DNA of 46,934 nucleotides, from NCBI GenBank assembly GCA_017438525.1, contig JAFRVI010000078.1, positions 1 through 46,934 of the forward strand. Direction: 5' to 3'. Shown in pieces: positions 4,168 to 27,604 of this stretch. The notes below the pieces were generated by a model, which was not told the DNA's origin, did not search any database, and was given only the letters and a program-made list of their open reading frames with translations. This stretch comes from Clostridia bacterium. Lineage in GTDB: Bacteria; Bacillota; Clostridia; Oscillospirales; RGIG8002. The position numbers and the translations under genes were made by a program. Within the stretch, counting starts at the first letter, position 1, and each line of letters starts with the position of its first letter.

Positions 4168-7100
4168 CTAATTTCCGAGACTTGATACGTCCGCCAGCTT
4201 CGCGGCGACGCGGAGTATAGCCAGCGCGTCGTCGACCTCGACCTTGCCGTTGCCGTCGATGTCGCCTATCGCGATAGCTTCGGGCGTTTCCGCAGCCAGC
4301 TTCGCGGCTATGCGCAGCGCCGCAAGGGCGTCGTCGACCTCGATCTTACCATTGCCGTTGAAGTCACCCTTCATCAGCGGGCTGACTTCCGAAGTATCGA
4401 CGACGATGAAGAAAACGGACGCTGGTTTGTAGCCATTCGTGACGGTAAGAACGTACTCGCCCACTTTGTTTACCGGCGTGCCGTCATACTCTTCTCCGTT
4501 CAGCGCGGCGGTGCCGACATCCCACGCGGGAGCGGCTGTTTCATCGTTCGCAAGGTCAAAGACCTGGCGTTCGGATACGCCGGTGATGACCGGAACCTGA
4601 GTGTTATCCGTCACGGTGAATGTAACGGTCGCTTCGGTGCCGTGGTTATTCACGACAAGCGTATGCTCGCCCGCTTCGGTCACGGGAGTTCCCGCCACAT
4701 AGTATTCGCCGTCGAGGAACGCCATGCCGCTGTCCCACGAGGCGGACGGTGCTTCGCCGTTCGTTATATCGTACGTCGCACCGTCGGTTATTCCGCTTAT
4801 TACAGGCGCTTCACCCGGTTCCGTATACGCTGCCAGCTCGGTGAACACAAACATTCCCTTTGCACCTTTTCCTGAGAAACCGATGGTGTTTAACTTCGCC
4901 AGGTCAAGCGTTTCTTCTCCGGAAACGTGAGTAAAATCAGAGAAAGGTATATGGATATACTGTCCGGTCGTCGTTATGGTCGGCAGCGGAGCGCTGAACA
5001 TAAAGCCGCCCTCGACGCCGGTGTGTCCGATGTAGATTTTACCGTTGGACTGCTCCTTCGTCAACCCCTTCGCCCAGATCGAGATACCGTCGCTGTTTGA
5101 AAGGTCGGCGCCGAACGGATTGCGGCCGACAACCTCTCCGTCGCTCGTTGTATTATACATTGTCCACGCAGTAGTCGAGCTCGCACTTATACAGAGCGAC
5201 TGTTTGACATTCGGGGTGATTGAAATTGATGAAGACGTCAGACTGAGAGTCGCTTTTGTCGAGGTCATCTGAGCGACATCCTCCGGCGTCCAGCCGTCGA
5301 AGCCGTTGAGGACAACTTCGCCGCCCGGAAGCTTGACGAGATGGTTCGCGGCGTTGTTTATAATGATTACACGTTCCGCGATTTCCGCGGCGGTCACCTT
5401 CTGCGAACGAAGCAGCGGGTTCGCTCCCTCCATCGCTTCACGCAGCTTCGCCACACTGTCCTCGGTATAATGCGAATAATCTATATCCAAGGCGGCGCTT
5501 ATCGCGTTATAAAGCGGCGACTTATCAACCGTCTTCGGCAGAGTCCAGAAATAAACAGCTTCATTCTGCTGCATCGGAGCAGCGAGCACCGAGGTACCAT
5601 CCGCCGAGAACGCGATATCCGAGAGGCAGTTTCCTCTCTTGCTGCTCGCCGTCGCATGGAAAATGTATAGCAATCCGCCGTTTCTGTCATAGATACGGGC
5701 AGTCCCGTCAAGCGAGCAAACGGCAATGCGGTTCCCGTCGGAAGAGAACTTCGCGGAAGTCGTCATCTGAGCGAACCCGTCAAGCAATGCGACGAGTCTT
5801 CCGCTTCCGAGATCAAAGAGTCTGGCGTTATTATCACTCGAAGTCGCAACAAGGCGGCTCCCGTCCGAAGAAACAGCAATAGACGCAATCGATGCACAGT
5901 CAGGATTCTCGATCGTCATGACGGCTTCGCCGGTTTCCGCGTCATAGAGCAGGATATCGCCCTTTTCATTGGAGGCGACGAATCTTGTACTGTTTGGAAT
6001 GAATTCTACCCCTCGCACAGTCGAAGACATATCAACGTCTCTCAATATCTCGAAAGTATCGGCATCGAGGATGAAAACCTTGCCTGACGACGTGCCTACA
6101 GCAACAAACACTCCGTTATCGGACGCGGATATCGCTCTGGCGTCGGAACCGAGATACGTCTTTCTGCGCAGCGATCCCGCCGATGAGCTGAAAGCGTATA
6201 TGTATTTGTTGTCACCGGGGGCATCGGTCATGTTGTCATTTCTACCGCCAGCGAAAATCGTCGACTCGTCCGCGGAAAACTCCAGCGCTTCAAAATAAAC
6301 GCCCGGAGCGCTCACGAATGTCCTTGCCGCAAGGTTATCGGACTTATATATCACTATGCCGCTCACGCGCGAGCCGACAGCGAGATACTTGCCGCTGGGC
6401 GAATACTTCAGCGCGTAAAGCGGACCCGCCTGCGAATTCTCATAATTTGCCATTTCACCGGTCTTCGCGTTATGCTGTATCACTCTGCCCTCACGGTCGA
6501 TAACCGTGATGTAATTACCGTTCGGTGAAGCGGCGACTCTTGAGGCGCCTTTATCTCCTATGGTGCTGCCGATTTTAGCACCCTCCGTCGATTCACGGGA
6601 GGCCACTTCGGCAGCAGCCGTCATATCTTCGGCACGCTTTGAAACGCGAATGTAATCGATATTGAATTCGGATTCGGCGGCGGTTTCTTCATAAGCTACA
6701 TTGCCTCCGGGTCCGCGAACGGAGGTGTTCAGAATGATATAATGCGGATTGTCACCGTATCCCCAGCGCGAAGCGTCAGTCGTCATATTCATCGAAATAT
6801 ACTGCATTCCGTCAAAGTAAATACGCAGTTGGTCGTGTTCCCATTCAAGTCCGTAGGTATGATAATCGTCACCTAAGCTGACATCATTCTTGTTATAGAA
6901 TTCTACGCCTTTGACGAATTCTCTGCTGCTGTCGACATAGTCGGAAAGCCAATGGAGAGTCCCGTAAAGCTTGGAGTCCTCTTTTCCGCCGCCGACGAGC
7001 TCCATGATATCGATTTCGCCGTTTTGAGGCCAATTCCCGTTAACTCCCATCATCCAAAGCGCCGGCCAGATCCAGTAACCGGTCGGGAGCTTCGCACGCA

Positions 7101-8643
7101 TCTCGACCTTCCCGTAAGACATGTAAAAATGCCCCTCGGTCGTCAGATATCCGCCGACAACCGGATAACCGTTATACGCCTCACGTTTTGTGCGAATAAC
7201 AAGTTCGCCGTCGCTTACGGAAACAAATCTTTCGTTGTCGCGGAAGTAGACGGGTTCTGTATCGGGTCGATTCTTCGCGTCGTAGACCATCCACTTGCTG
7301 CGATCGACGGCGTCACCGTCGAACTCGTCGTTCCAGACTTGATTCCATCCGCCGCGGACGCATTCATAGACATCCCACACCTGCTGCACGGTCGATGCTT
7401 TGAGGTTTCCGGCGACATAGTTGAGATAAGAGTTCGCAGATGCGACCACGATTTTGAATCCATTGGACGACCTGTTTATTTTCCATTCCTGCATTTCGTC
7501 GGAAAGATTCAGTATAGATGTATCTATCTTATAGCTCAGAACATAGCTGCTTGCACTCAGCGCGAGCGAGCTGTTTTTGTTTATTATCCTGAATGTACCG
7601 TCGCCGTGACGATAAAGCTGCCACTCCTGGCAAGGATCCTCGCGCCTTTCTTCCATAGTGACATTAAGGCCCGACTGCTTGTTGACGATACGATTTTCAT
7701 AGCCGGTCGAAGTCATGGTTTCGGTATCTGTCACAGCCGGAGAAAGCGTCAGCGCAAGGCCGGTGCTGCTGTCGACGATTTTGTAGTAACTTCCGGATGT
7801 TATTGTCGTAGTTTTGACCTCTTGATACTCCGGCTTCACAGTAGAAAGAATGCTCTCGGTAAAGCAGTGCAGGTCGGAAACGCGAGCGATGAAACCCGGT
7901 CTTACCCCCTCGAACGAGAAAGCTATATAGTTCAATTCGGCGAGATCGATTCCGCTGCCGACGGCGTCATAATCGGCAGTGAAAAATTCCCAGTCGATTG
8001 CAACATAGCCGTTCCTGGCAGGAATGCCGGCGGCAGTATAGGTCTTTCTTCCTCTTTCGTTTCTGACGCCGACGGAAACGGTGACGGTCTTTACGAGCGA
8101 AATATTATCGAAGTCGGTGCGGAAGCGCAGCCCCGCAGTATCCGAAATATCACCGGTAAAAACATCGGCTCCATCTATCTCCGTATCAGAGGCAGCGTTC
8201 GAAAAGAATGCAATATCTTTGCCGGCTGTTACGACTTTGACGGCGGGCCCGTTCTGAACTGCCTCATCGTAAAAGACCGCACACCCGGATGTATCGGTAA
8301 ACGATGAAACTGTCGTCGAGTCCCATGCGGCGAATCCGTCGATCTCTCGCCTTTCGGGCGATGCAACGGCAGTGAACCCGCCGATCGCGTCGGTAAGAAG
8401 CGCAGTTACCGAAGCGACATCGGCATTGGAAGGACTATCAGAATACAACAGCGCTTCGGCAGCATCGTAAGCCGCCTTCAGCTGCCTGCGCGAAACACAG
8501 GTGCCGTCACTGTAAAGCAGCTCCGCTGCAGTAATAGACAACGCCTCAAGCTCGCCGGTTCCGGCCGCAACGTGAGTTATCGCCGTCGGCAGAATCAGGG
8601 CGAGGCACAAAACAGTTGAAATTATACGTTTTACATTCTTCAT
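4168..8643 (-). CDS. Secreted GH16 glycosidase with beta-propeller and dockerin (paralogue A)
   Basis: This 1491-residue secreted protein begins with a signal peptide (KNVKRIIS then a hydrophobic stretch). The ATG at 8643 is preferred over one 45 bp upstream because GGAGG precedes it. In order: a FIVAR-like helical stretch (to about 65), a beta-sandwich resembling a carbohydrate-binding module, a ricin-type trefoil (about 285-430), a GH16 domain (about 433-670), a WD40-like propeller (about 690-1010), a second FIVAR-like helix bundle, a second beta-sandwich, two Ig-like repeats and a type I dockerin (about 1427-1487, two D-x-N/D-x-N-G loops). The GH16 acid/base and nucleophile motif EIDIME is intact (E543, D545, E548), so it should cleave beta-1,3/1,4-glucan-type polymers. 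The dockerin suggests docking to a cohesin scaffold. An extended -10 lies at 8709-8717. Confidence 0.9.
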   Translation of the reverse strand: MKNVKRIISTVLCLALILPTAITHVAAGTGELEALSITAAELLYSDGTCVSRRQLKAAYDAAEALLYSDSPSNADVASVTALLTDAIGGFTAVASPERREIDGFAAWDSTTVSSFTDTSGCAVFYDEAVQNGPAVKVVTAGKDIAFFSNAASDTEIDGADVFTGDISDTAGLRFRTDFDNISLVKTVTVSVGVRNERGRKTYTAAGIPARNGYVAIDWEFFTADYDAVGSGIDLAELNYIAFSFEGVRPGFIARVSDLHCFTESILSTVKPEYQEVKTTTITSGSYYKIVDSSTGLALTLSPAVTDTETMTSTGYENRIVNKQSGLNVTMEERREDPCQEWQLYRHGDGTFRIINKNSSLALSASSYVLSYKIDTSILNLSDEMQEWKINRSSNGFKIVVASANSYLNYVAGNLKASTVQQVWDVYECVRGGWNQVWNDEFDGDAVDRSKWMVYDAKNRPDTEPVYFRDNERFVSVSDGELVIRTKREAYNGYPVVGGYLTTEGHFYMSYGKVEMRAKLPTGYWIWPALWMMGVNGNWPQNGEIDIMELVGGGKEDSKLYGTLHWLSDYVDSSREFVKGVEFYNKNDVSLGDDYHTYGLEWEHDQLRIYFDGMQYISMNMTTDASRWGYGDNPHYIILNTSVRGPGGNVAYEETAAESEFNIDYIRVSKRAEDMTAAAEVASRESTEGAKIGSTIGDKGASRVAASPNGNYITVIDREGRVIQHNAKTGEMANYENSQAGPLYALKYSPSGKYLAVGSRVSGIVIYKSDNLAARTFVSAPGVYFEALEFSADESTIFAGGRNDNMTDAPGDNKYIYAFSSSAGSLRRKTYLGSDARAISASDNGVFVAVGTSSGKVFILDADTFEILRDVDMSSTVRGVEFIPNSTRFVASNEKGDILLYDAETGEAVMTIENPDCASIASIAVSSDGSRLVATSSDNNARLFDLGSGRLVALLDGFAQMTTSAKFSSDGNRIAVCSLDGTARIYDRNGGLLYIFHATASSKRGNCLSDIAFSADGTSVLAAPMQQNEAVYFWTLPKTVDKSPLYNAISAALDIDYSHYTEDSVAKLREAMEGANPLLRSQKVTAAEIAERVIIINNAANHLVKLPGGEVVLNGFDGWTPEDVAQMTSTKATLSLTSSSISITPNVKQSLCISASSTTAWTMYNTTSDGEVVGRNPFGADLSNSDGISIWAKGLTKEQSNGKIYIGHTGVEGGFMFSAPLPTITTTGQYIHIPFSDFTHVSGEETLDLAKLNTIGFSGKGAKGMFVFTELAAYTEPGEAPVISGITDGATYDITNGEAPSASWDSGMAFLDGEYYVAGTPVTEAGEHTLVVNNHGTEATVTFTVTDNTQVPVITGVSERQVFDLANDETAAPAWDVGTAALNGEEYDGTPVNKVGEYVLTVTNGYKPASVFFIVVDTSEVSPLMKGDFNGNGKIEVDDALAALRIAAKLAAETPEAIAIGDIDGNGKVEVDDALAILRVAAKLADVSSLGN

Positions 8644-8893
8644 CAGTTTTCCTCCGAAAGATTTACAAATAGCGCCAAAACAGCGCATAATCCCACGTTT
8701 TCGTATATATTATATCAGAACAGCACATGATAATCTTGTCATATTGTGATAATATTCTTGATATGTGATATCCTGAAACTATATATGCCTTTAAAATTTC
8801 GGAAACACAGATTGAGCGTCCAGCTCTTTTACCTCTCTTTGCAATGTATATTACATTTTTTACAAAAAAGTTGAAATATTTTTAAAAAAACTA
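8644..8893. other. AT-rich divergent intergenic region
   Basis: This non-coding stretch separates paralogue A (leftward) from the RNA candidate (rightward). Beyond the promoter elements listed separately, only AT-rich sequence with short A and T runs is seen. Confidence 0.6.
8709..8717 (-). promoter_or_regulatory. Extended -10 element for paralogue A
   Basis: On the minus strand the sequence reads TGATATAAT, an extended -10 (TG-N-TATAAT) about 65 bp before the ATG. No good -35 is seen at 17 bp. Confidence 0.5.
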
Positions 8894-9309: not shown

Positions 9310-9341
9310 AAAGCGGACAGACGCTCACGTCTGTCCGCTTT
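9310..9341. terminator. Bidirectional terminator
   Basis: A perfect 14-bp stem, AAAGCGGACAGACG (9310-9323) with its complement (9328-9341), sits 50 bp beyond the stop codon of paralogue B. T-rich sequence lies on both sides. It probably ends paralogue B and backs up the RNA terminator. Confidence 0.85.
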
Positions 9342-9391: not shown

Positions 9392-12300
9392 TCAAAACTC
9401 GACGTATTCGACGCTCGCGGCAGTAACGGACGGCGCGGTGTCGATTTCGTCGGAAACGGTCAGTTCGCCTGCGCACAGGCGCGAGATCAATTGCGCGTAG
9501 TCTTCCTGCCCGAAGGCCTGATTCCACAGCGTTGTATCATACGGCAGCTGAACGAAGTTGTTCTCCGGATCCAGCGCATCATTGAAACCGAGCAGGAAGT
9601 GCCGGCCGGCGCAGTCCGCCCAATTGCCTTCCCGTATCGTTTCGAGAGCGCCGAAAACAGACGGGTAGATACCCTTTATCGCGGATGTCAGGACAAGCCC
9701 TTCATCAAACATCACGGACTGATCCGAGTCGACGCCGATCAGCTTGCCGCCCTTTTCCTGCGCGGCTTCGGCAACGGAAAGGGAGATGCCGCCTCCGCAG
9801 GCGAATACCGCCTGTACTCCGCCGTCGTACCATGCGCACATATTCTCCGTAATCTCTTCCGACGGGGCAAAGGAATTCGCGTACGCGAATTTCACCTTTG
9901 CGGTTATGCCGAGCTCGCTCGCGGCGGCGTCGGCTCCCTGCAGGAACCCGTAACCGTAGCGCGTGACGGCGGGGATAGGCATTCCGCCGAGGAAACCGAG
10001 ATTATCGTATCCGAGCTTCACCGCCGCATAACCGGCGAGGAATCCGGCGGCCTCTTCGCGATAGGTCAGGCAGAGGACGTTACCGTAGTCAAAGACGTTC
10101 TCACCCGCCGCCTCGAGCAGCTCGTCGCGCGAAACGTCGATCAAGACGAACTTCGCGTCCGGATACTGCGGCACTTTTTCCGCAATGAGATCCGTCATCA
10201 TAAAGCCGATCACAACGAAAACGTCGCACCCCTCCGCCGAGGCGTCGTCGATCAGGCGGCCGTTATCGAAATCGTCGCCGAGCGGATAATACGCGGAACG
10301 ATAAATATGATTCTTTTCGCCGAAATCATCAATAGCTTTATACGCCGCGCCGGTGAACGCGTCCCATTCGTCGACGGGAGCGTCGCATATCAACGCTATG
10401 CCGCGGATACCGCTTCCCTGCGGAACGATACCGAGCGCAATGCGGAGAAGGACGAGCGCGTCGACTACCGTAACTTCGCCGTCTCCGTCAACGTCGCAAT
10501 TCGCATCGACGGTCATAAGTCCGGCCGAAACTCTGAGGCAGATAAGCACGTCGGAAACCGTTATCTCGCCGTCTCTGTCAACGTCGCCGGGCATGCCGGG
10601 CGCGCCCTCGTTCACGCGGAATCTGACGGTAACAATCTTGTCAAGGTTGATGACCTTCAGGACGTAGTCGCCGGGCTCATTGATCGTCACGCCGTTTCCG
10701 ACATCGAAGCCGTTAAGCTCTCCCCTGCCTGTATTCCATGTTACATTGACCGGCGCATCATATTCGCCGCCGTCCTCAACTCCGGTGATGACGGGCATTT
10801 CGCCTTCTTCCTGATACGCGGTGAGATCGTAATAATAAACGCCGGTGGTGGACTTGCCCGCGCCGGTGAACCCGATTATTTCGAGTCTTGAAAGATCAAG
10901 CTGCCCGTCGCCGCTGACGCGCACGAATTGATCGAACGGCGCGGTGATCTCCTTCTTATCGGCACCGATAGCTCCGACGTTGAACTTGTATATCGTATCT
11001 TCCTCTTCGCCGGGGTATCCTATGAGAATATCGCTGTCGGTAACGTCTTTGGTGGAATAGGTCTTAAACTTCAATCCGCTGTAATCGCGCATATCCGCTA
11101 CAAACGGATTTTTGACGATGCCTTCTGCGGTCTTGTTGTTGAACTCCCACTTGGTACGCGTGGAATAAACGCAGAGCGCGTTATGCGTAACGTCTCCGTC
11201 AGTCACGTCTCGCATCGTGGCGCGGCAGGTCGTGACAGTCATAAGCGAAGTATCAGAGGTCTGCCACGGCTTGAAGCCGAAGGGCTCGTTATCCTTCAGC
11301 GCGACCGCGCAGCGAACCGTTCTCGCCGCGGCGGTGACGTCGCCCTGGTCGGCGGTGTAGATGCGCGCGAGCTTCTTATACTTGTTGCGAATGCCCTCCA
11401 GCACTCCCCATGCGCGTGCGGAGTAGTCATCCGGATTGGCGACCGCCGCGTCGCGGAGCGCAGCTTCAAGCTCGGAAGTATCGAGACTTCCGGTGCCGAG
11501 ATTCCAGCAAAGCGTGTTCGCCTTGTTATGATAAGTTATACCGTATACCTTTGTCCCACCGGCGCCGAAAACGGCGTTATGGATCGCATACGTGCCTTCC
11601 TGTCTGCCGTTGAGCGTGCGGAGGTATTCGCCGTTTGCGGTATAGAGTCTGCCGTATCCCTCCAAACTCATGAGGAGTATCATCTTGCCGTCAGGCGACC
11701 AGCGCGCGGTCGGGACCGCCTGACCGAAGCCGCCCATCACGGAGAGCAGCTTGCCTGAAGCGGCGTCGAAGAGTCTGCCGCCGTCGGTGCTGCCGCTGAC
11801 GAGCAGTTTCGTGCCGTCCGGCGAGAACTCGCAGGTGCGGATCGAAGCTCTGCTGACGTTCGCCGCTTCATACTTCATCGTTTTTGCGGCGACGTCGTAT
11901 ACGAATATCTTGCCGCCCTCGTCGGTCGTGGCAAGCAGCGCGCCGTCCGGAGACCAGTCAAGACCTCTGGCGCAGTGGATATGATCCGTAAACACGGCGT
12001 ATTCGGTAAGCGCGCCTCCGGTGATGTTGTAAACGATTATCTTTCCGTTCGCGCAGGCGGCGGCGAGTTTCGTGCCGTCCGGCGAAACCTTCAGAGTCCT
12101 TACGTTACTGCCGGTAAACGGGCCTTCGGTCACGGCTCCGGTCGCCGTATCCATTATATAAACGTATTGCGAAACGTCTTTGCTCGGGATCGAGCTATCC
12201 GCTTCCCCGCTGATTCTGCCGCCGGCGAAAAGCTTGCTGCCGTCAGCGTTGAAATCAACCGCTTCGACGTATACGTGCGGGAAAGAGCCCGTAGCTTTCC

Positions 12301-14674
12301 TCGTCAGCGCGGGGCTGTCAAGTATAACGACCTTATCGCCGCGCGAAGCTACCGCTATCTTGGTTCCGTCGTCGGAAAACAGTATCTTGGAAATTTCATT
12401 GTATCCGCAGGAATTACTCTTCAGAAGCGAGTTATCCGAAGTATCGGTAAGGTAAACCGTGCCTCTGTCGGAAGACGCGACGTATTTGCCGTCGGGAGAA
12501 GCGTCGAGAGCGCACATCCAACCGCTTCCTGTAACGACGTTGGAGGCGTTCAGAACCTCGTCGTTGTAGGCCGGAGCGTCCGAAACTTCGCCGGCGCGCT
12601 TATACACGCGAACGTAATCGACGTACATGAACGTTTCGTCCGCCATATCGCTGTAAATCTGGTTGTTGCCTGGCCCCTTGGTAGAAACGTTGAGAATCAG
12701 ATAGTGCGGATTATCGCCGAAGCCCCAGCGGATCTCGTCTGTCGTCAGCAGCATCGACATATACATCATTCCGTCGACGTAAGTGCGCGCCTGCTTTTCA
12801 TCCCATTCTACCGTGAAAGTGTGGTAGTCGTCAGCGTAGGGTTCCTTGTTCTCGTTATATATCGTGGTGCCTTTTGCGGCGTGGATCATATAGTCGTTGC
12901 TCGTATCGCTGCCGTAAAGGTTGCCCTGATACGTGAACCAGTGGTTAGTGCCGTATATCGCGTACGGATCGCTTGCGTTATCGCTGATATCGAACTCCAT
13001 CATATCGAGCTCGCCGTTGTAAGGCCAGTTGCCGTACTGTCCCATAGACCAGAACGCAGGCCAGGAACGCTTGCCGTCCGTAAGTTTGGCGCGCATTTCG
13101 ATTTTGCCGTAAGTCACGCCGTAGATGCCCTGGGTATCCATATAACCGGAGGTGGCGTGATAGTTGCCGTAATCCTCTTTTACGGTCCTGATAACGAGTT
13201 CGCCGTTCTTGACGTAGATATTATTCGGGTCGTCGCGGAAGGTTGCGGGCTCGCTGTCGCCTCTGACTTTGCCGTTCGCGACGTTCCACTTCGTACGGTC
13301 GATGGAGTTCCCGTCGAACTCATCGCCCCAGACCTCGACCCATTCGTCCGTAACGCATTCGTATACGTCCCATTCATAAGCGGAGGAAACGAGATCAGGC
13401 ACGCCGCCGCTTATACCGAGGTACTTGCTGCCGCTTTTGAATACGAATCTGCCGTTGGATTCGGTAACTGACCATTTTTGGCGTGGATTATCGAGATCCT
13501 CGTGGTGTTCAAGAGCGAGCTTTCCGCTTTCGATTACTATAGTTCCTATCGATAACGTCGTGCCGCGCGCCATTGTCGCGGAGGTACCCTGATTTATTAT
13601 GTGATAGTCGCCGCTGCGGAGCTGCTTGTAAATCTGCCACTGCTGCGTCACGTCGTCGCCATTGCCCTCGGAAAGACTGAATGACTGATTGGAAGAAGTC
13701 CAGTCGAGGCGGCTGCTCGACGCCTGCTGCTTGTAGACTGTCTCTGTGAGCGCCGGTCCCCAGGTGACGACCTTGCCGGTCGCCGGATCGGAAATCTTAT
13801 AGATGTGTTCGTTGTCTATCTGATCGAAAGCGGTGACCTTCACTTCCTCGTAGACGCGGTCGTCCTTCTCTATCGTTTCGACGAAGGCGTGAACGTCGGA
13901 AATATAAACGCTCGCGCCGGCTTCGCCGCTAACGGCAAAGCCGAGGAGGTTCATCGCGCCGGAAAGATCTATCTTCGAATCGGGATAGTTGACCTCCGGA
14001 TAGAATATCTCCCACGGAACGTAGACGTAACCCTCTTTCGTCACGGGGATATCATAGACCGAGAGCATTTCTTCCGATTCCGCGGTCGATTTGCCGACGT
14101 AAAGCTCGATGCTCCCGACCGCGTCGTAGTTATCCGAAGAGAGCCACAGCGCAAGACCGTCCGAGAAATACATATCGACTCCGAACGGCGAATAAGCGCC
14201 GTCCTCACCGGGTCGGTTGATGAACATGACGTAACTGTCGTACGCCGTCAACTTCAGCGACTGCGACGCGCCCTCCGGCTTGACGTCGGTGACGATTAGC
14301 GAAGAGAGGCCGAAACGGTTCATTCTTTCGACCTGCTCCTGAGTCCATTTATCGACGCCGTTTAGATTGACTCTGCCGGATACGGTCATCGGAAGAAATC
14401 CATCGACCGCGGCGGCAAGACGCTCGTAAGCGTTGTCTATCTCCGGCTGCGCCGCGGAATCGTCGATGATGACTGCGTCGGCGGCGGCAAGCTTGCCGTA
14501 GAGGTATTTTCTTGTCTGTTCGGTCCCACCCGAGAAGTAGAGCTCGCGCGCTTCATTGAGTTTCTGCTCGAGCTCCGCCTTTGTCGTCGAGGCGGATGCG
14601 GTTATTGTGAACGAGCCGGCAAAAACACCCGCTATCATACACAATAGGATCAATGCGGATAGCAACTTTTTCAT
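9392..14674 (-). CDS. Secreted GH16-propeller-dockerin protein with BMP-type binding domain (paralogue B)
   Basis: This is the largest of three paralogues (1760 residues). It has a signal peptide (MKKLLSALILLCMIAGVFAG), FIVAR-like helices, a CBM-like beta-sandwich, a ricin-type trefoil (about 275-440), a GH16 domain (about 441-695) with intact catalytic motif ELDMME (E555, D557, E560), a WD40-like propeller (about 700-1070), a second helical stretch and beta-sandwich, a short Ig-like segment and a dockerin (about 1352-1414). Unlike its relatives it continues for about 340 residues with a periplasmic-binding fold like the BMP/PnrA family (starting GIRGIALICDAPVDEWDAF; also DNLGFLGGMPIPAVTRYGYG, FACGGGISLSVAEAA and KLIGVDSDQS). 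That family binds nucleosides for ABC transporters; here it has no lipobox and would be extracellular. The gene follows prkC on the same strand; GGGAGG precedes the ATG. Confidence 0.9.
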   Translation of the reverse strand: MKKLLSALILLCMIAGVFAGSFTITASASTTKAELEQKLNEARELYFSGGTEQTRKYLYGKLAAADAVIIDDSAAQPEIDNAYERLAAAVDGFLPMTVSGRVNLNGVDKWTQEQVERMNRFGLSSLIVTDVKPEGASQSLKLTAYDSYVMFINRPGEDGAYSPFGVDMYFSDGLALWLSSDNYDAVGSIELYVGKSTAESEEMLSVYDIPVTKEGYVYVPWEIFYPEVNYPDSKIDLSGAMNLLGFAVSGEAGASVYISDVHAFVETIEKDDRVYEEVKVTAFDQIDNEHIYKISDPATGKVVTWGPALTETVYKQQASSSRLDWTSSNQSFSLSEGNGDDVTQQWQIYKQLRSGDYHIINQGTSATMARGTTLSIGTIVIESGKLALEHHEDLDNPRQKWSVTESNGRFVFKSGSKYLGISGGVPDLVSSAYEWDVYECVTDEWVEVWGDEFDGNSIDRTKWNVANGKVRGDSEPATFRDDPNNIYVKNGELVIRTVKEDYGNYHATSGYMDTQGIYGVTYGKIEMRAKLTDGKRSWPAFWSMGQYGNWPYNGELDMMEFDISDNASDPYAIYGTNHWFTYQGNLYGSDTSNDYMIHAAKGTTIYNENKEPYADDYHTFTVEWDEKQARTYVDGMMYMSMLLTTDEIRWGFGDNPHYLILNVSTKGPGNNQIYSDMADETFMYVDYVRVYKRAGEVSDAPAYNDEVLNASNVVTGSGWMCALDASPDGKYVASSDRGTVYLTDTSDNSLLKSNSCGYNEISKILFSDDGTKIAVASRGDKVVILDSPALTRKATGSFPHVYVEAVDFNADGSKLFAGGRISGEADSSIPSKDVSQYVYIMDTATGAVTEGPFTGSNVRTLKVSPDGTKLAAACANGKIIVYNITGGALTEYAVFTDHIHCARGLDWSPDGALLATTDEGGKIFVYDVAAKTMKYEAANVSRASIRTCEFSPDGTKLLVSGSTDGGRLFDAASGKLLSVMGGFGQAVPTARWSPDGKMILLMSLEGYGRLYTANGEYLRTLNGRQEGTYAIHNAVFGAGGTKVYGITYHNKANTLCWNLGTGSLDTSELEAALRDAAVANPDDYSARAWGVLEGIRNKYKKLARIYTADQGDVTAAARTVRCAVALKDNEPFGFKPWQTSDTSLMTVTTCRATMRDVTDGDVTHNALCVYSTRTKWEFNNKTAEGIVKNPFVADMRDYSGLKFKTYSTKDVTDSDILIGYPGEEEDTIYKFNVGAIGADKKEITAPFDQFVRVSGDGQLDLSRLEIIGFTGAGKSTTGVYYYDLTAYQEEGEMPVITGVEDGGEYDAPVNVTWNTGRGELNGFDVGNGVTINEPGDYVLKVINLDKIVTVRFRVNEGAPGMPGDVDRDGEITVSDVLICLRVSAGLMTVDANCDVDGDGEVTVVDALVLLRIALGIVPQGSGIRGIALICDAPVDEWDAFTGAAYKAIDDFGEKNHIYRSAYYPLGDDFDNGRLIDDASAEGCDVFVVIGFMMTDLIAEKVPQYPDAKFVLIDVSRDELLEAAGENVFDYGNVLCLTYREEAAGFLAGYAAVKLGYDNLGFLGGMPIPAVTRYGYGFLQGADAAASELGITAKVKFAYANSFAPSEEITENMCAWYDGGVQAVFACGGGISLSVAEAAQEKGGKLIGVDSDQSVMFDEGLVLTSAIKGIYPSVFGALETIREGNWADCAGRHFLLGFNDALDPENNFVQLPYDTTLWNQAFGQEDYAQLISRLCAGELTVSDEIDTAPSVTAASVEYVEF

Positions 14675-21884: not shown

Positions 21885-24800
21885 TTACTGTATCCGCGCC
21901 GCAGCGCGCATTATCAACAATACGTCCGAAACCGTCAGAGCGGCGTCGGCGTCCATATCCATTCTTTCGACGGTGTCGATATCCGTCTTCGTCATGCCGA
22001 GCGAAATACGGAGCACTTGGAGCGCGTCGGTAACGCTTATCCGTCCGTCGCCGTCGATATCGCCGCGGATCAGTTCCACGAAAACGCACGCGGTGTTCCC
22101 CGCGCAGAAGGTCTCCGCGTAGCTCCCGCGCGTGCCGTAGACCTTGACGTTACGGCTCGCGAACGCGTCGTCCGCGCAGTCCGACATCGTCGACGGGAAG
22201 CGCAGTTTTTCCAGCGGAGCGGTCCCGAACGCATCCGATTCGACGCGTTCGACGCCTTCGCGCAGGATAACCTCTTTCAGCGCGCGGACGTTTCCGCAGA
22301 TGCCGGACGGAACGGTCTTCATACCGCTGCCGATAACGAGTTTACGCAATCCGTGGCACCAGTCGAAGGCGTCTTCGCCGATAAAGGTCACGGAATCAGG
22401 AATGACAAGCTCCGTAAGCTGCTTGCAGCCGTGAATCGACTCTTTGGCGATATATTCAAGTCCTTCGGGCAGGATAAGCTCGCGGAGCGTCCAGCAGTTG
22501 CGGAACGCCTCCGTTTCGATGCGCTTCAATGTCGACGGGAGCGTTATGCTCACGTTTTTCGCGTAGTTGCCCATGCCGCCGAACGCCGCGGCGCCTATCA
22601 CCGTGACGGGGCAGCCGCCGAGCGTTTCCGGAACGACGATGTTTCTGTCGTTGCCGCGGTAGCCGGTAACGGTCGCTTCGCCGTCGGTTATCTTATAGAA
22701 AAAGTCGCAGTCGTAGGCGGCGGAAGCGGGTCCGGATTCGCCGTCAACGCTCCATCGGTGGAGCGCCTTCGGGAATGTGTATGTCGTGGCGTAAACGTAT
22801 TCGCCGGACGGCGAGAACTTCATCGAAAAGACGTGTCCGTTATGCTCCGTCATCGACGTGACGAGCGTGCGGCGGTAGCCGCCGTCGGCGTCGTAGATCT
22901 TCACCCTGCCGTCGAGACTCGCGACGGCGATGCGGCTTCCGTCCGGAGAGAACTCCGCTATATGCGCCGCCTGCGAAAAGCCGCCGAGTATTTTCAGCAG
23001 TTCTCCGCTTTCAACGTCGTAAAGTCGGGCGCAGTTATCGGAGGAGTTGACGAGCAGTTTTCTGTCGTCCGCGGAGAAGCGCACGGAGGTCATGCTTGTG
23101 TTTTTCAGCGTGTTCAGTTTGCGGATAAGGGTTTGATCCGCGACGCTGAAAAGGTATATCCCTCCGCGCTCGTCCGTCACGGCCAGCATAGAGGAATCCG
23201 ACGAGAAGGCGACTCCGCGCGCCTGCGCCGCGCCGCATTCGAGGTGAGCGAGCACGGTGAAGGTTTCTGTTTCGAGCAGGACGCATCTGCCGTCGAGCAG
23301 CGCTACGGCGAGCAGACCGCCGTCCGGCGAAAGCGTCATTCCCCTGCCCTCTCCGCCTATTTCGGTCTCGTATCTCAACGCGCCGGTGGCGATGTCGAAC
23401 ACGCGCATACAGCCGAGTTTCACGATGCTTCCGTCAAACTGGTTGCCGGCGCCGTTATGAGCCGCTCTCGCAGGCATATCCGCGGTTATCAGCCCCGTGC
23501 CGTCCTTCGTAAACAGCAGCTTACTATGGCAGACGGTGCCGTTGCAGATGCGAAGCGGGGGCGCGTCGTAATCCGACGTATCGTAGATCAGTATCGTGCC
23601 GACGAAATCCGCGACGGCGAGCTTCGATCCGTCCGGCGAATACTCGATCGCCGAAAGGAGTACCATCGGGAGCGCGGTCAGCATACGCTTCTGAAGACCC
23701 GTGGCGGCGTCTTCGATATAGATATATCCTTTTCCGTCGGCAACGGCGATCTCGCCGCCGTCCGGCGAGACCGCAAGCGGCATCTCGTTATCCCAGTCGT
23801 GCGAACGCGCGACGACGTCGGCGGCGGTGGATGTGTAAGTCGTTTCCGGCGTCGTTTCGTCCGGCAGGTAATCGCAGCTCGTTTCGCGCTTGCTGACGGT
23901 TATTCTGTCGATGTAGTAAAAATACTCTTCCGGATAATCCTTGCCGGGTGTGAGCGTTCCGTCGTCCTCGCCCTGGATCCAGTTATCGAGGATCAGAAAA
24001 TGCGGATCGTCGCCGAAGGCGTATTTGTCGTCGTTCGCCTTCGGATTGTGCGACGCGTAGAGCATCCCGTCGAGGAACCAGCGCATCTGGTCGTTCTCCC
24101 ATTCCAGCGCGAAGGTGTGGAACTCTTCGCTGAACGGGACGCGGTTTTCGGTATAAAGCGTTCTGCCCTCGGAGGTGTGGCTGCCGCCCGGAGTCGTCCA
24201 GTGGCGCGTGCCGAAAAGATAAGCGTCAGCGTCGGCCATGCCCTCGTTGCTTATCTCCATAATATCGATTTCGCCGTTGCCCGCCCAGAGCGTTTCGTTC
24301 GCGAGCATCCAGAGCGCCGGAAAGGTGCCGTAGCCGTGAGGCAGACGGGCGCGCATTTCGATTCTGCCGTATGAGATCGAGTATTTGCCGGCCGTATCGA
24401 CCATACCGGCTGCCGCGGCGTATCCGCCGTAGTCTCCGATATCCGCGCGGAGCACGAGACTGCCGTCTTCGATATAGACGTGTTCGTCGTCGCCGACATT
24501 TATCACGACGGCTTTGTCCGTCTGCAAATGTCCGTCTGCGCGGTTCCACTTCGACTCGTCGAAGTAATCAAATTCATCGGTCCAATCCTCGACCCAGCCG
24601 GGCTCGCTTATGCGCGCTATCGAGAACTGCTTCGCTCCCGACGTGACGGCGGTCGAGCGCACGCGCCGGCCGGAATAGGTTATCGCTCCGGCGTTTCTGA
24701 TCACGAAGGTGAAGTATCCGTTTTTATACTGGATCGCCCATTCCTGCTTTGCGTTATTAAGGTCGACGTTTTCAGGCGAAAGCTCGCCGGACGCGTAGAC

Positions 24801-25130
24801 GTCCTTTATCGTAAGCGCGGAGGCGCAGTATTTGTTTATTATCCTGTAACGGTTGCGAAGGGCCGGATCGCTGACGATCTGCCATTCCTGACGCTTTTCG
24901 ACTTCGACCGGATCTTCGAGGACGAGCGTTCCGTCCGGGTCGTTCTCCGCGTAGGTCAACGCCTTACCGTTAGTGTCGTAGATTTTGTAATAGCAGTCCG
25001 CCGTGAAGCCCGGCTCCGTAAGGAGCGTTTCTTCATAGCCGGCGTATCCCGACTCCGCGGAAATCACGCCGGACGGAAGAAGCCCCGCGACGATAAGCAG
25101 CGATATTATAATTGCCGTCAGTTTTTTCAT
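21885..25130 (-). CDS. Secreted GH16-propeller protein with leucine-rich repeats and dockerin (paralogue C)
   Basis: This 1081-residue secreted protein starts with a signal peptide (MKKLTAIIISLLIVAGLLPS); the ATG at 25130 has AGAGG upstream, and the frame upstream of it is inside priA. In order: a ricin-like trefoil (about 25-170), a GH16 domain (about 177-417) with catalytic EIDIME (E287, D289, E292), a WD40-like propeller (about 440-790), BspA-type leucine-rich repeats (about 800-1010; for example LPSTLKRIETEAFRNC and IPDSVTFIGEDAFDWC) and a dockerin (about 1020-1079) whose second loop (DMDADAALTVSD) lacks the usual glycine. It is the only paralogue with LRRs and lacks the N-terminal FIVAR/CBM part. 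It sits 26 bp after priA and 16 bp before def. Confidence 0.9.
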   Translation of the reverse strand: MKKLTAIIISLLIVAGLLPSGVISAESGYAGYEETLLTEPGFTADCYYKIYDTNGKALTYAENDPDGTLVLEDPVEVEKRQEWQIVSDPALRNRYRIINKYCASALTIKDVYASGELSPENVDLNNAKQEWAIQYKNGYFTFVIRNAGAITYSGRRVRSTAVTSGAKQFSIARISEPGWVEDWTDEFDYFDESKWNRADGHLQTDKAVVINVGDDEHVYIEDGSLVLRADIGDYGGYAAAAGMVDTAGKYSISYGRIEMRARLPHGYGTFPALWMLANETLWAGNGEIDIMEISNEGMADADAYLFGTRHWTTPGGSHTSEGRTLYTENRVPFSEEFHTFALEWENDQMRWFLDGMLYASHNPKANDDKYAFGDDPHFLILDNWIQGEDDGTLTPGKDYPEEYFYYIDRITVSKRETSCDYLPDETTPETTYTSTAADVVARSHDWDNEMPLAVSPDGGEIAVADGKGYIYIEDAATGLQKRMLTALPMVLLSAIEYSPDGSKLAVADFVGTILIYDTSDYDAPPLRICNGTVCHSKLLFTKDGTGLITADMPARAAHNGAGNQFDGSIVKLGCMRVFDIATGALRYETEIGGEGRGMTLSPDGGLLAVALLDGRCVLLETETFTVLAHLECGAAQARGVAFSSDSSMLAVTDERGGIYLFSVADQTLIRKLNTLKNTSMTSVRFSADDRKLLVNSSDNCARLYDVESGELLKILGGFSQAAHIAEFSPDGSRIAVASLDGRVKIYDADGGYRRTLVTSMTEHNGHVFSMKFSPSGEYVYATTYTFPKALHRWSVDGESGPASAAYDCDFFYKITDGEATVTGYRGNDRNIVVPETLGGCPVTVIGAAAFGGMGNYAKNVSITLPSTLKRIETEAFRNCWTLRELILPEGLEYIAKESIHGCKQLTELVIPDSVTFIGEDAFDWCHGLRKLVIGSGMKTVPSGICGNVRALKEVILREGVERVESDAFGTAPLEKLRFPSTMSDCADDAFASRNVKVYGTRGSYAETFCAGNTACVFVELIRGDIDGDGRISVTDALQVLRISLGMTKTDIDTVERMDMDADAALTVSDVLLIMRAAARIQ

Positions 25131-25156
25131 CAGATAAACCTCTTTAACGCTTGCTT

Positions 25157-27604
25157 TTATTCCGGATTTATCTCCGCGGTTACGGATGCGCCGGAAAACT
25201 CTCTGTATCTGTTCACCGTTACCAGCAGGTCGCTCAAAAACTCGCGGAAGCGTCTGCCGTCGCGGCATTTGAGCATCAGCCGGAACTTGTAGCGCGAAGA
25301 ATACTTCGTTATGAGCTCTTTATTCGGCATCATAACGCGCATCGGGAGCTTCGGGTATTTCGTCTTCACCATTTCGCAGACGAGGTCGTAGAGCCGCTGC
25401 GAAACGCGTTCGCAGAACTCCTCCCCCGCAGCGCTGACATTCAGCACGCAAACGTCGCAGAACGGCGGATAGAGCATCTGCTTGCGGATGAGTATTTCGT
25501 CATCGTAAAACGCCTTGTAGTCCTGCTCGGCGCCGAGTTTAAGTATCGGGTGGTTCGGCGCGTAGGTCTGCACGACCGCTCTTCCCGCTTTGTGCCTGCC
25601 CGATCTGCCGATGACTTGCGTCATCATCGAGAAGGTGCGTTCGTCGGCGCGGAAGTCGGTGTCGAACAGCGACGCGTCCGCCGAAAGCACGCCGACAAGC
25701 GTTACGTTTTCAAAGTCAAGCCCCTTGGCGACCATCTGTGTGCCGAGGAGCACGTCGTACTCGCCTTTTCCGAAAGCGGAAAGCATATGCGAGTGCGATT
25801 CCTTCGACGAGGTCGTGTCCAGATCCATACGAAGCACGCGGACGCCCGGCAGAGCCGCTTCAAGCTCTTCTACGGCCTTCTGCGTGCCCGCGCCGCGGTA
25901 ATGCACCGTAGGCGTTCCGCACGCCGGACAGATCTCGGTATATTCCTTCGACGCTCCGCAGTAGTGGCACATCAGACGCTTGTTCGCGCTGTGGTAGGTA
26001 AGCGGAATGTCGCAGTTGTCGCATTTGAGCGCCTCTCCGCATTCGGAGCAGACGCCGGCGGTGTTGTATCCCCGCCTGTTGAGCAGTATTATGGACTGCT
26101 CGCCCTTTTCGGCGTTCGCCTGCAGCTCGCCGAGCAGAAGCCGGCTTATGCAGGTTTTATTGCCGTCCGCCGCTTCGCCGCGCATATCCGCCATATACAC
26201 GCCGGGGAGCCGGTTGTCGCCGTAGCGTTCATCCAGCTCGAAAAGCGAGTATCTGCCGGTCTTCGCGTGGTAGTAAGACGAGACCGACGGAGTAGCGGAC
26301 GCGAGCAGAAGCAGCGCGTTGTTTTTCGCCGCCAGGAACTTCGCGACAGATTGCGCGTGGTATCTCGGCGACTGCTCGGAATAGTACGAGGAGACCTGCT
26401 CCTCGTCGATGATGATAAGCCCGACGTTTTTCAGCGGCGCGAATACGGCGGAGCGCGTTCCGACGGCGATCTTCGCGGCGCCGGATTCGAGGCGGCGGTA
26501 TTCGTCCATACGTTCGCCTACGCCGAGAGCCGAATGGATGACCGCCACTATATCGCCGAACGCGGTGCGGAAGCGCCGCACGGCCTGCGGCGTCAGAGTT
26601 ATCTCGGGGACGAGCATTATCACGTCCCTGCCGTCGGCGACCGCCTTTTTCGCAAGCTCGATATAGATGCCCGTCTTTCCGCTGCCGGTAACTCCGCGCA
26701 GCAGCGCGCATTTCGGCTCGTCCGCTTCGTAAAGCGCGACGAGGCCGTCGTAAACCTCGCGCTGTTTTTCGGTGAGCACGAACTTTTCGCCCGATTTCTC
26801 GCCTTTTTCGGGCGTACGGTCGACGCGTTCGCGGTAGATCCCGATGATCTCGCGCTTATCGAGTGTTTTCAGCACGCCCTGCGTCACGCCGGTGTAGTAG
26901 CAGACGTCTTTCAGCGTCGCCTCGCCGTTTTCAAGCAGGAAGCGGACTACGCTTTTGCCCTGCTCGGTGAGCAGCTTCGTCAGCAGAAGCTCCTCCGCCT
27001 CGTCGGGCGAAACGCGCAGGCGGCAGCTGCTTCTTACGGCGTCCGCGCCGAGGCGTTTCGATGCCGTTTCACGGCGGATTATCCCCTCTTCGCAGAGCAA
27101 ATTCAGCGCCGCGACGTCGTGGAAAACACCCGCCTTCGATACGAAAGCGGCGACGGAAACGGGCTTTTTCGCCGCGGCGATGATGTCGTAGATCGACTTT
27201 TCCTCGTCGGTCATGACGTGGTCACCGTCGTACGCCTCGTTTACCGAGTACGCGTCGTAAAGCCGGTAGTTCAAGCCCGCCGGCAGTATGGCGCGGACGG
27301 CGTCGAAAAACGTGCAGAAGGTCGTTTCCTTCAAATAGCGCACAAGCTCGAGCTGCGCGTCGGACAGTATCGGTGATGCGTCGAGAAGCGCGGTAAGCGG
27401 CTTTATCTTCGTAACGTCGGAAACGTCGGATATCTCCATTATGATACCCTGACGCTTGCCGCTCGATCTGCCGAAAGGCACGATCACGCGGCACCCGACG
27501 GCGGCGTTATCCGCTATTTTGGGCGGCACGCGGTAGTCGTACAGCTTATCCATGCCGTACGTCGCGCCGTCGACCGCCACTCTCGCAAACTTCAAGCTGT
27601 CCAA
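25157..27604 (-). CDS. priA: Primosomal replication-restart helicase
   Basis: This 815-residue superfamily 2 helicase has an N-terminal DNA-binding domain, Walker A GVTGSGKTGIY, motif Ia VPEITLTPQ, and a zinc-binding insert with eight cysteines (CSEC, CDNC, CHYC, CPAC). Its motif VI is QVIGRSGR. It reloads the replication fork machinery at stalled forks. The Walker B box reads DEEQ where PriA proteins usually have DEEH. The start is TTG (27604) preceded by AGGAG. It is 13 bp after rpoZ; coaBC, which lies between them in B. subtilis, is absent. Confidence 0.95.
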   Translation of the reverse strand: MDSLKFARVAVDGATYGMDKLYDYRVPPKIADNAAVGCRVIVPFGRSSGKRQGIIMEISDVSDVTKIKPLTALLDASPILSDAQLELVRYLKETTFCTFFDAVRAILPAGLNYRLYDAYSVNEAYDGDHVMTDEEKSIYDIIAAAKKPVSVAAFVSKAGVFHDVAALNLLCEEGIIRRETASKRLGADAVRSSCRLRVSPDEAEELLLTKLLTEQGKSVVRFLLENGEATLKDVCYYTGVTQGVLKTLDKREIIGIYRERVDRTPEKGEKSGEKFVLTEKQREVYDGLVALYEADEPKCALLRGVTGSGKTGIYIELAKKAVADGRDVIMLVPEITLTPQAVRRFRTAFGDIVAVIHSALGVGERMDEYRRLESGAAKIAVGTRSAVFAPLKNVGLIIIDEEQVSSYYSEQSPRYHAQSVAKFLAAKNNALLLLASATPSVSSYYHAKTGRYSLFELDERYGDNRLPGVYMADMRGEAADGNKTCISRLLLGELQANAEKGEQSIILLNRRGYNTAGVCSECGEALKCDNCDIPLTYHSANKRLMCHYCGASKEYTEICPACGTPTVHYRGAGTQKAVEELEAALPGVRVLRMDLDTTSSKESHSHMLSAFGKGEYDVLLGTQMVAKGLDFENVTLVGVLSADASLFDTDFRADERTFSMMTQVIGRSGRHKAGRAVVQTYAPNHPILKLGAEQDYKAFYDDEILIRKQMLYPPFCDVCVLNVSAAGEEFCERVSQRLYDLVCEMVKTKYPKLPMRVMMPNKELITKYSSRYKFRLMLKCRDGRRFREFLSDLLVTVNRYREFSGASVTAEINPE

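Follow-up and report, generated by a model that had tools for sequence, protein, structure and literature searches.

The window analysed here, 46,934 nucleotides of a Clostridia bacterium contig (JAFRVI010000078.1), carries on its minus strand an open reading frame (9392-14674) that is unbroken from the ATG at 14674 to the stop codon at 9392-9394. The encoded protein of 1760 amino acids comprises a signal peptide, N-terminal modules, a GH16 domain, a WD40-type propeller, a type I dockerin, and a full PnrA/BMP domain in this order (Table 1). The dockerin has two Ca-binding F-hand repeats, and both loops can be read as intact (DVDRDGEITVSD and DVDGDGEVTVVD). Only approximately 10 residues link the dockerin to the BMP domain, and 351 residues in all are located C-terminal to the dockerin. 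A preliminary description of this DNA had placed a BMP/PnrA domain behind the dockerin of a GH16 protein, at 9392-10430; the Pfam match and the module boundaries agree with that assignment. An internal start releasing a free BMP protein was considered and rejected because no in-frame ATG was seen by eye at the junction.

Table 1. Features of the fused gene and its surroundings (window coordinates; residues refer to the 1760-residue protein).
Feature	Position	Strand	Residues	Basis and remarks
Signal peptide	14591..14674	-	1-28	By eye from translation; without lipobox Cys
GH16 catalytic domain	12698..13228	-	483-659	PF00722, 35.7 bits (cut-off 22; Pfam)
GH16 E-x-D-x-x-E motif, intact ELDMME	12995-13012	-	555-560	Motif position
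WD40-type beta-propeller	11582..12481	-	~732-1031	PF00400 and several propeller models (Pfam)
Type I dockerin (Dockerin_1)	10448..10591	-	1362-1409	PF00404, 30.2 bits (cut-off 22.9)
BMP/PnrA-type substrate-binding domain	9395..10417	-	1420-1760	PF02608; AlphaFold2; Z 32.2 to 7x0r
Base-side specificity loop DAPVDEWDAFT	10352..10384	-	1431-1441	Stacking Phe1440 kept; alignment of 39 BMP domains
Likely transcription terminator	9310..9341	-		14-bp hairpin with T-rich tail, ~50 bases past the stop codon; longest stem among terminator-like hairpins, whose site count is not above shuffles
Neighbouring GH16-propeller-dockerin paralogue without BMP	4168..8688	-		Pfam; the two genes are also adjacent in G002 and G003

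The Bmp family (PF02608) matched residues 1439-1669 with 97.3 bits (cut-off 24.1, E 1.1e-27). Fold prediction, which had been proposed as a check, bore out the assignment. The AlphaFold2 model of residues 1355-1760, calculated with 48 aligned sequences, has a mean pLDDT of 82.7; most of the BMP part exceeds 90, whereas confidence is low in the dockerin part. In the structural comparison (Foldseek, VIA-align), the top matches were the guanosine complex of Lbp (7x0r, Z 32.2), BmpD (6shu, 32.0), and PnrA (2fqw, 31.9), with 22-25% identity over ~305 residues, whereas other sugar-binding folds gave Z values near 19-21. A sequence search by phmmer found 7x0r at E 6e-22. The fused segment, as modelled, is a two-lobed BMP fold.

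BMP/PnrA domains normally serve in membrane transporters. The fused domain differs from the PnrA, BmpD, and Lbp lipoproteins in that it lies directly behind a dockerin at the C-terminal end of a 1760-residue enzyme, whose N-terminal signal lacks a lipobox Cys. It is not encoded with an ABC transporter; its neighbours are a PASTA kinase, a PP2C protein, RlmN, and the GH16 paralogue, and nucleoside genes are absent beside it.

The fusion is present in three of the four genomes of the genus, namely the present genome, G003 (1761-residue frame, BMP part 89% identical), and G002 (1780-residue frame, BMP part 62% identical). The three proteins align through the dockerin-BMP junction; both DxDxDG loops of the dockerin are intact in the present protein and that of G002, and the first loops are intact in G003 as well. 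An assembly artefact behind the dockerin, a concern of the preliminary description, can be rejected because G002 and G003 are independent assemblies with the identical layout of the fused frame. The BMP part is under purifying selection, with dN/dS values (Nei-Gojobori) of 0.165 against G003 and 0.280 against G002. In the fourth genome, G001, the orthologue (G001:C30, L193) is 78% identical and ends with ...LYILRAAVGLITLPR and a stop codon right behind the dockerin. This genome, which is 75% complete, gave no BMP match at all. The module was therefore gained or lost inside the genus. The tree groups the orthologues including G001 with full support (100/100), but its base is unresolved and it does not separate gain from loss in G001. 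The genus thus offers a natural pair, with the module (the present genome, G002, G003) and without it (G001), for testing the role of the module. A recent foreign insert was not supported by GC and GC3, which are unremarkable in the BMP part. Direct duplication of the free BMP protein of the genus was not supported either; the fused clade stands apart from the free one and is nearest to an SLH-linked BMP protein of G348 (92/89), both being long branches in that tree.

The same genomes keep a free, lipoprotein-like BMP paralogue, which is 45-49% identical to the fused domain. Its gene lies with those of a nucleoside-type ABC transporter; one for an RbsA-like ABC ATPase comes next, and the downstream genes in G002 include those for a permease and for a pyrimidine-nucleoside phosphorylase (547 bits, cut-off 409).

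In BmpA, Phe27 and Phe176 are essential for binding, Asp98, Asp225, and Lys242 contact the ribose, and nucleosides but not ribose are ligands (PMC13325309). The equivalent residues in the fused protein are Phe1440, Phe1602, Asp1513, Asp1649, and Lys1667, so that it shares the stacking Phe pair and the ribose-binding Asp/Asp/Lys set with PnrA, BmpD, and Lbp. In an alignment of 39 BMP domains, these five residues are kept in all 3 fused domains and all 36 others. At the positions equivalent to BmpA D19, F27, D98, F176, V224, D225, and K242, the fused domains and the free paralogues share identical residues, and the equivalent of F151 is Tyr in the fused domains, likewise in most free relatives. 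The sole departure among the nine pocket positions checked is at the equivalent of Asn28, beside the first Phe, which is replaced by Thr (the present genome and G003) or Ile (G002). The loop around it, which in PnrA tunes base choice (PMC13325309), is rewritten relative to PnrA, BmpD, and Lbp and is unlike that of every free relative in the alignment. Between the same two genomes, the fused BMP domains are 62% identical versus 78% for the free ones, indicating that the fused domain evolves faster. Because of this faster evolution and the unlike loop, the ligand of the fused domain may have been altered, perhaps to one different from that of the free paralogue. Because the stacking Phe pair and the ribose residues are kept and only the Asn-bearing loop is rewritten, we expect a nucleoside-type ligand from the sequence, with an oligosaccharide less favoured.

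The genome (1.85 Mb) contains 61 dockerin matches in 56 frames. In most of these proteins the dockerin is the last module, with 5-16 residues after it, in contrast to the fused protein with its second domain. Longer tails were also found in an amidase, a CHAP protein, SGNH-type hydrolases (by eye), an LRR protein, and double-dockerin proteins. The fused protein resembles dockerin-borne GH16 enzymes of cellulosome-type systems in combining GH16 with a type I dockerin whose loops are both intact. The combination of GH16, WD40-type propeller, and dockerin forms an expanded family (4168-8688, 9392-14674, and 21885-25268 in the window; also on G000:C4 and C65), and the remaining paralogues in the genome lack BMP. 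On G000:C51 (L159), five neighbouring proteins each have one internal and one C-terminal dockerin. Only one cohesin exceeds the Pfam cut-off (G000:C87:23613-23999; L064 9521-10426); it belongs to a protein of 301 amino acids with a signal peptide and a C-terminal TM segment. A weak cohesin-like stretch below the cut-off (G000:C15:11282-11695, L191; 14.6 bits) is possibly a second, divergent cohesin. Another dockerin protein (G000:C65:38-460) looks cohesin-like in its C-terminal part, but without support from Pfam.

The reading that we prefer, at odds that we judge about even, is that the fused domain serves as a complete PnrA/BMP-type module for nucleoside capture, tethered at the surface through the dockerin of a secreted protein with GH16 and propeller domains. 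This proposal builds on computed results, namely domain identity, fold, pocket, selection, and conservation in three genomes. We infer that the signal peptide would export the protein, that the dockerin would plug into the membrane-anchored cohesin of the genome, and that the BMP domain would close on nucleosides that become free in the vicinity of the surface, for instance through cell lysis. More speculatively, the local nucleoside concentration would rise for the nucleoside ABC transporter, a separate system with the free paralogue as its lipoprotein; a benefit of the pairing with GH16 is equally speculative. Dockerin proteins with Exo_endo_phos (DNase I-like; L162 6320-7387, minus strand) and with Metallophos domains exist in the genome and could be putative nucleoside releasers; a NucH/ExeM match was weak (25.8 bits versus 300). 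The preliminary description had suggested that oligosaccharides or nucleosides are held at the cell surface. Surface capture is plausible and the pocket residues favour the nucleoside part of this suggestion, but not the oligosaccharide part. If the nucleoside-capture proposal is true, dockerin complexes, which cut and bind polymers, would gain the capture of a small molecule as a further role.

The GH16 partner would more simply suggest a sugar ligand, and the domain would then bind an oligosaccharide released by GH16, such as laminaribiose, and hold or shuttle it at the surface. Beta-1,3-glucans are frequent substrates of GH16 enzymes, and the remodelled specificity loop is compatible with such a change. 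C. thermocellum Lbp, the closest relative among solved structures, was named for laminaribiose, and an earlier ITC report of laminaribiose binding is cited in PMC9601137. However, the ligand in the Lbp crystal was guanosine, the density was not matched by laminaribiose, and growth on laminaribiose persisted in a mutant of the Lbp transporter (PMC9601137). The retained aromatic sandwich and ribose residues, together with the binding of nucleosides but not ribose by BmpA (PMC13325309), also speak against an oligosaccharide, which we consider quite unlikely. The matter is also relevant to the unsettled question of whether Lbp binds laminaribiose or a nucleoside.

Two further readings concern the function of the domain rather than its ligand. 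A ligand-gated regulatory role of the BMP domain, in which a nucleoside would alter the adjoining dockerin or enzyme and the protein would act as a surface sensor, is very unlikely. Two-lobed binding domains are sensor inputs in other proteins, and the structure search returned a BMP-fold transcriptional activator of comK (2hqb), but the present chain has no signalling domain, the dockerin linker is only ~10 residues long, and the low model confidence over the dockerin leaves no coupling readable. A retained passenger of minor function, as a spacer, an adhesin, or by chance, would fit the existence of the G001 orthologue without BMP and the finding that BMP is among the fastest-evolving parts of the protein between the present genome and G002. 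We regard this as unlikely in view of the dN/dS of 0.17-0.28 and pocket residues untouched over 38% divergence.

The preliminary description had regarded the layout as unusual. With the fused domain as the query, samples of the order (394 genomes), the class (391), and the phylum (398), which overlap and together amount to ~1,150 distinct genomes, gave no further dockerin-BMP frame of the same kind; the fusion was seen only in the present genome, G002, and G003. The relatives found in these genomes are nearly all free proteins of ~330-450 amino acids. None of the 80 best relatives in GTDB contigs (40-46% identical) has a dockerin-like motif, in a scan that may omit the present genome and its near relatives. 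The searched open-access papers yielded no described protein that combines a dockerin with a nucleoside-binding domain, in keeping with the earlier view that the layout had not been described.

Surface-tethered BMP domains are recurrent, in dockerin, SLH, and LRR proteins. In G348 of the same order, a protein of 820 amino acids (L065 3475-5934, minus strand) has BMP followed by three SLH domains (PF02608 and PF00395 over cut-off), and in a Bacillota MAG (L120 5746-13056), BMP precedes ~2,000 residues of BspA-type LRR and a PA domain, with no lipobox seen. As in the fused protein, an intact BMP pocket (alignment) lies inside a large surface protein. In these two, however, BMP is N-terminal, anchored by SLH or LRR, and accompanied by neither dockerin nor glycosidase, whereas in the fused protein it lies behind the dockerin. 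That gut-type Clostridia recurrently recruit transporter-type binding domains onto dockerin, SLH, or LRR surface proteins, an undescribed device that would capture nucleosides outside the membrane for a separate transporter, is a tentative and rather doubtful generalization. In G363 (L067), BMP is interrupted by InlB/Flg_new-type repeats, and frames of comparable lengths occur in G297 and G144.
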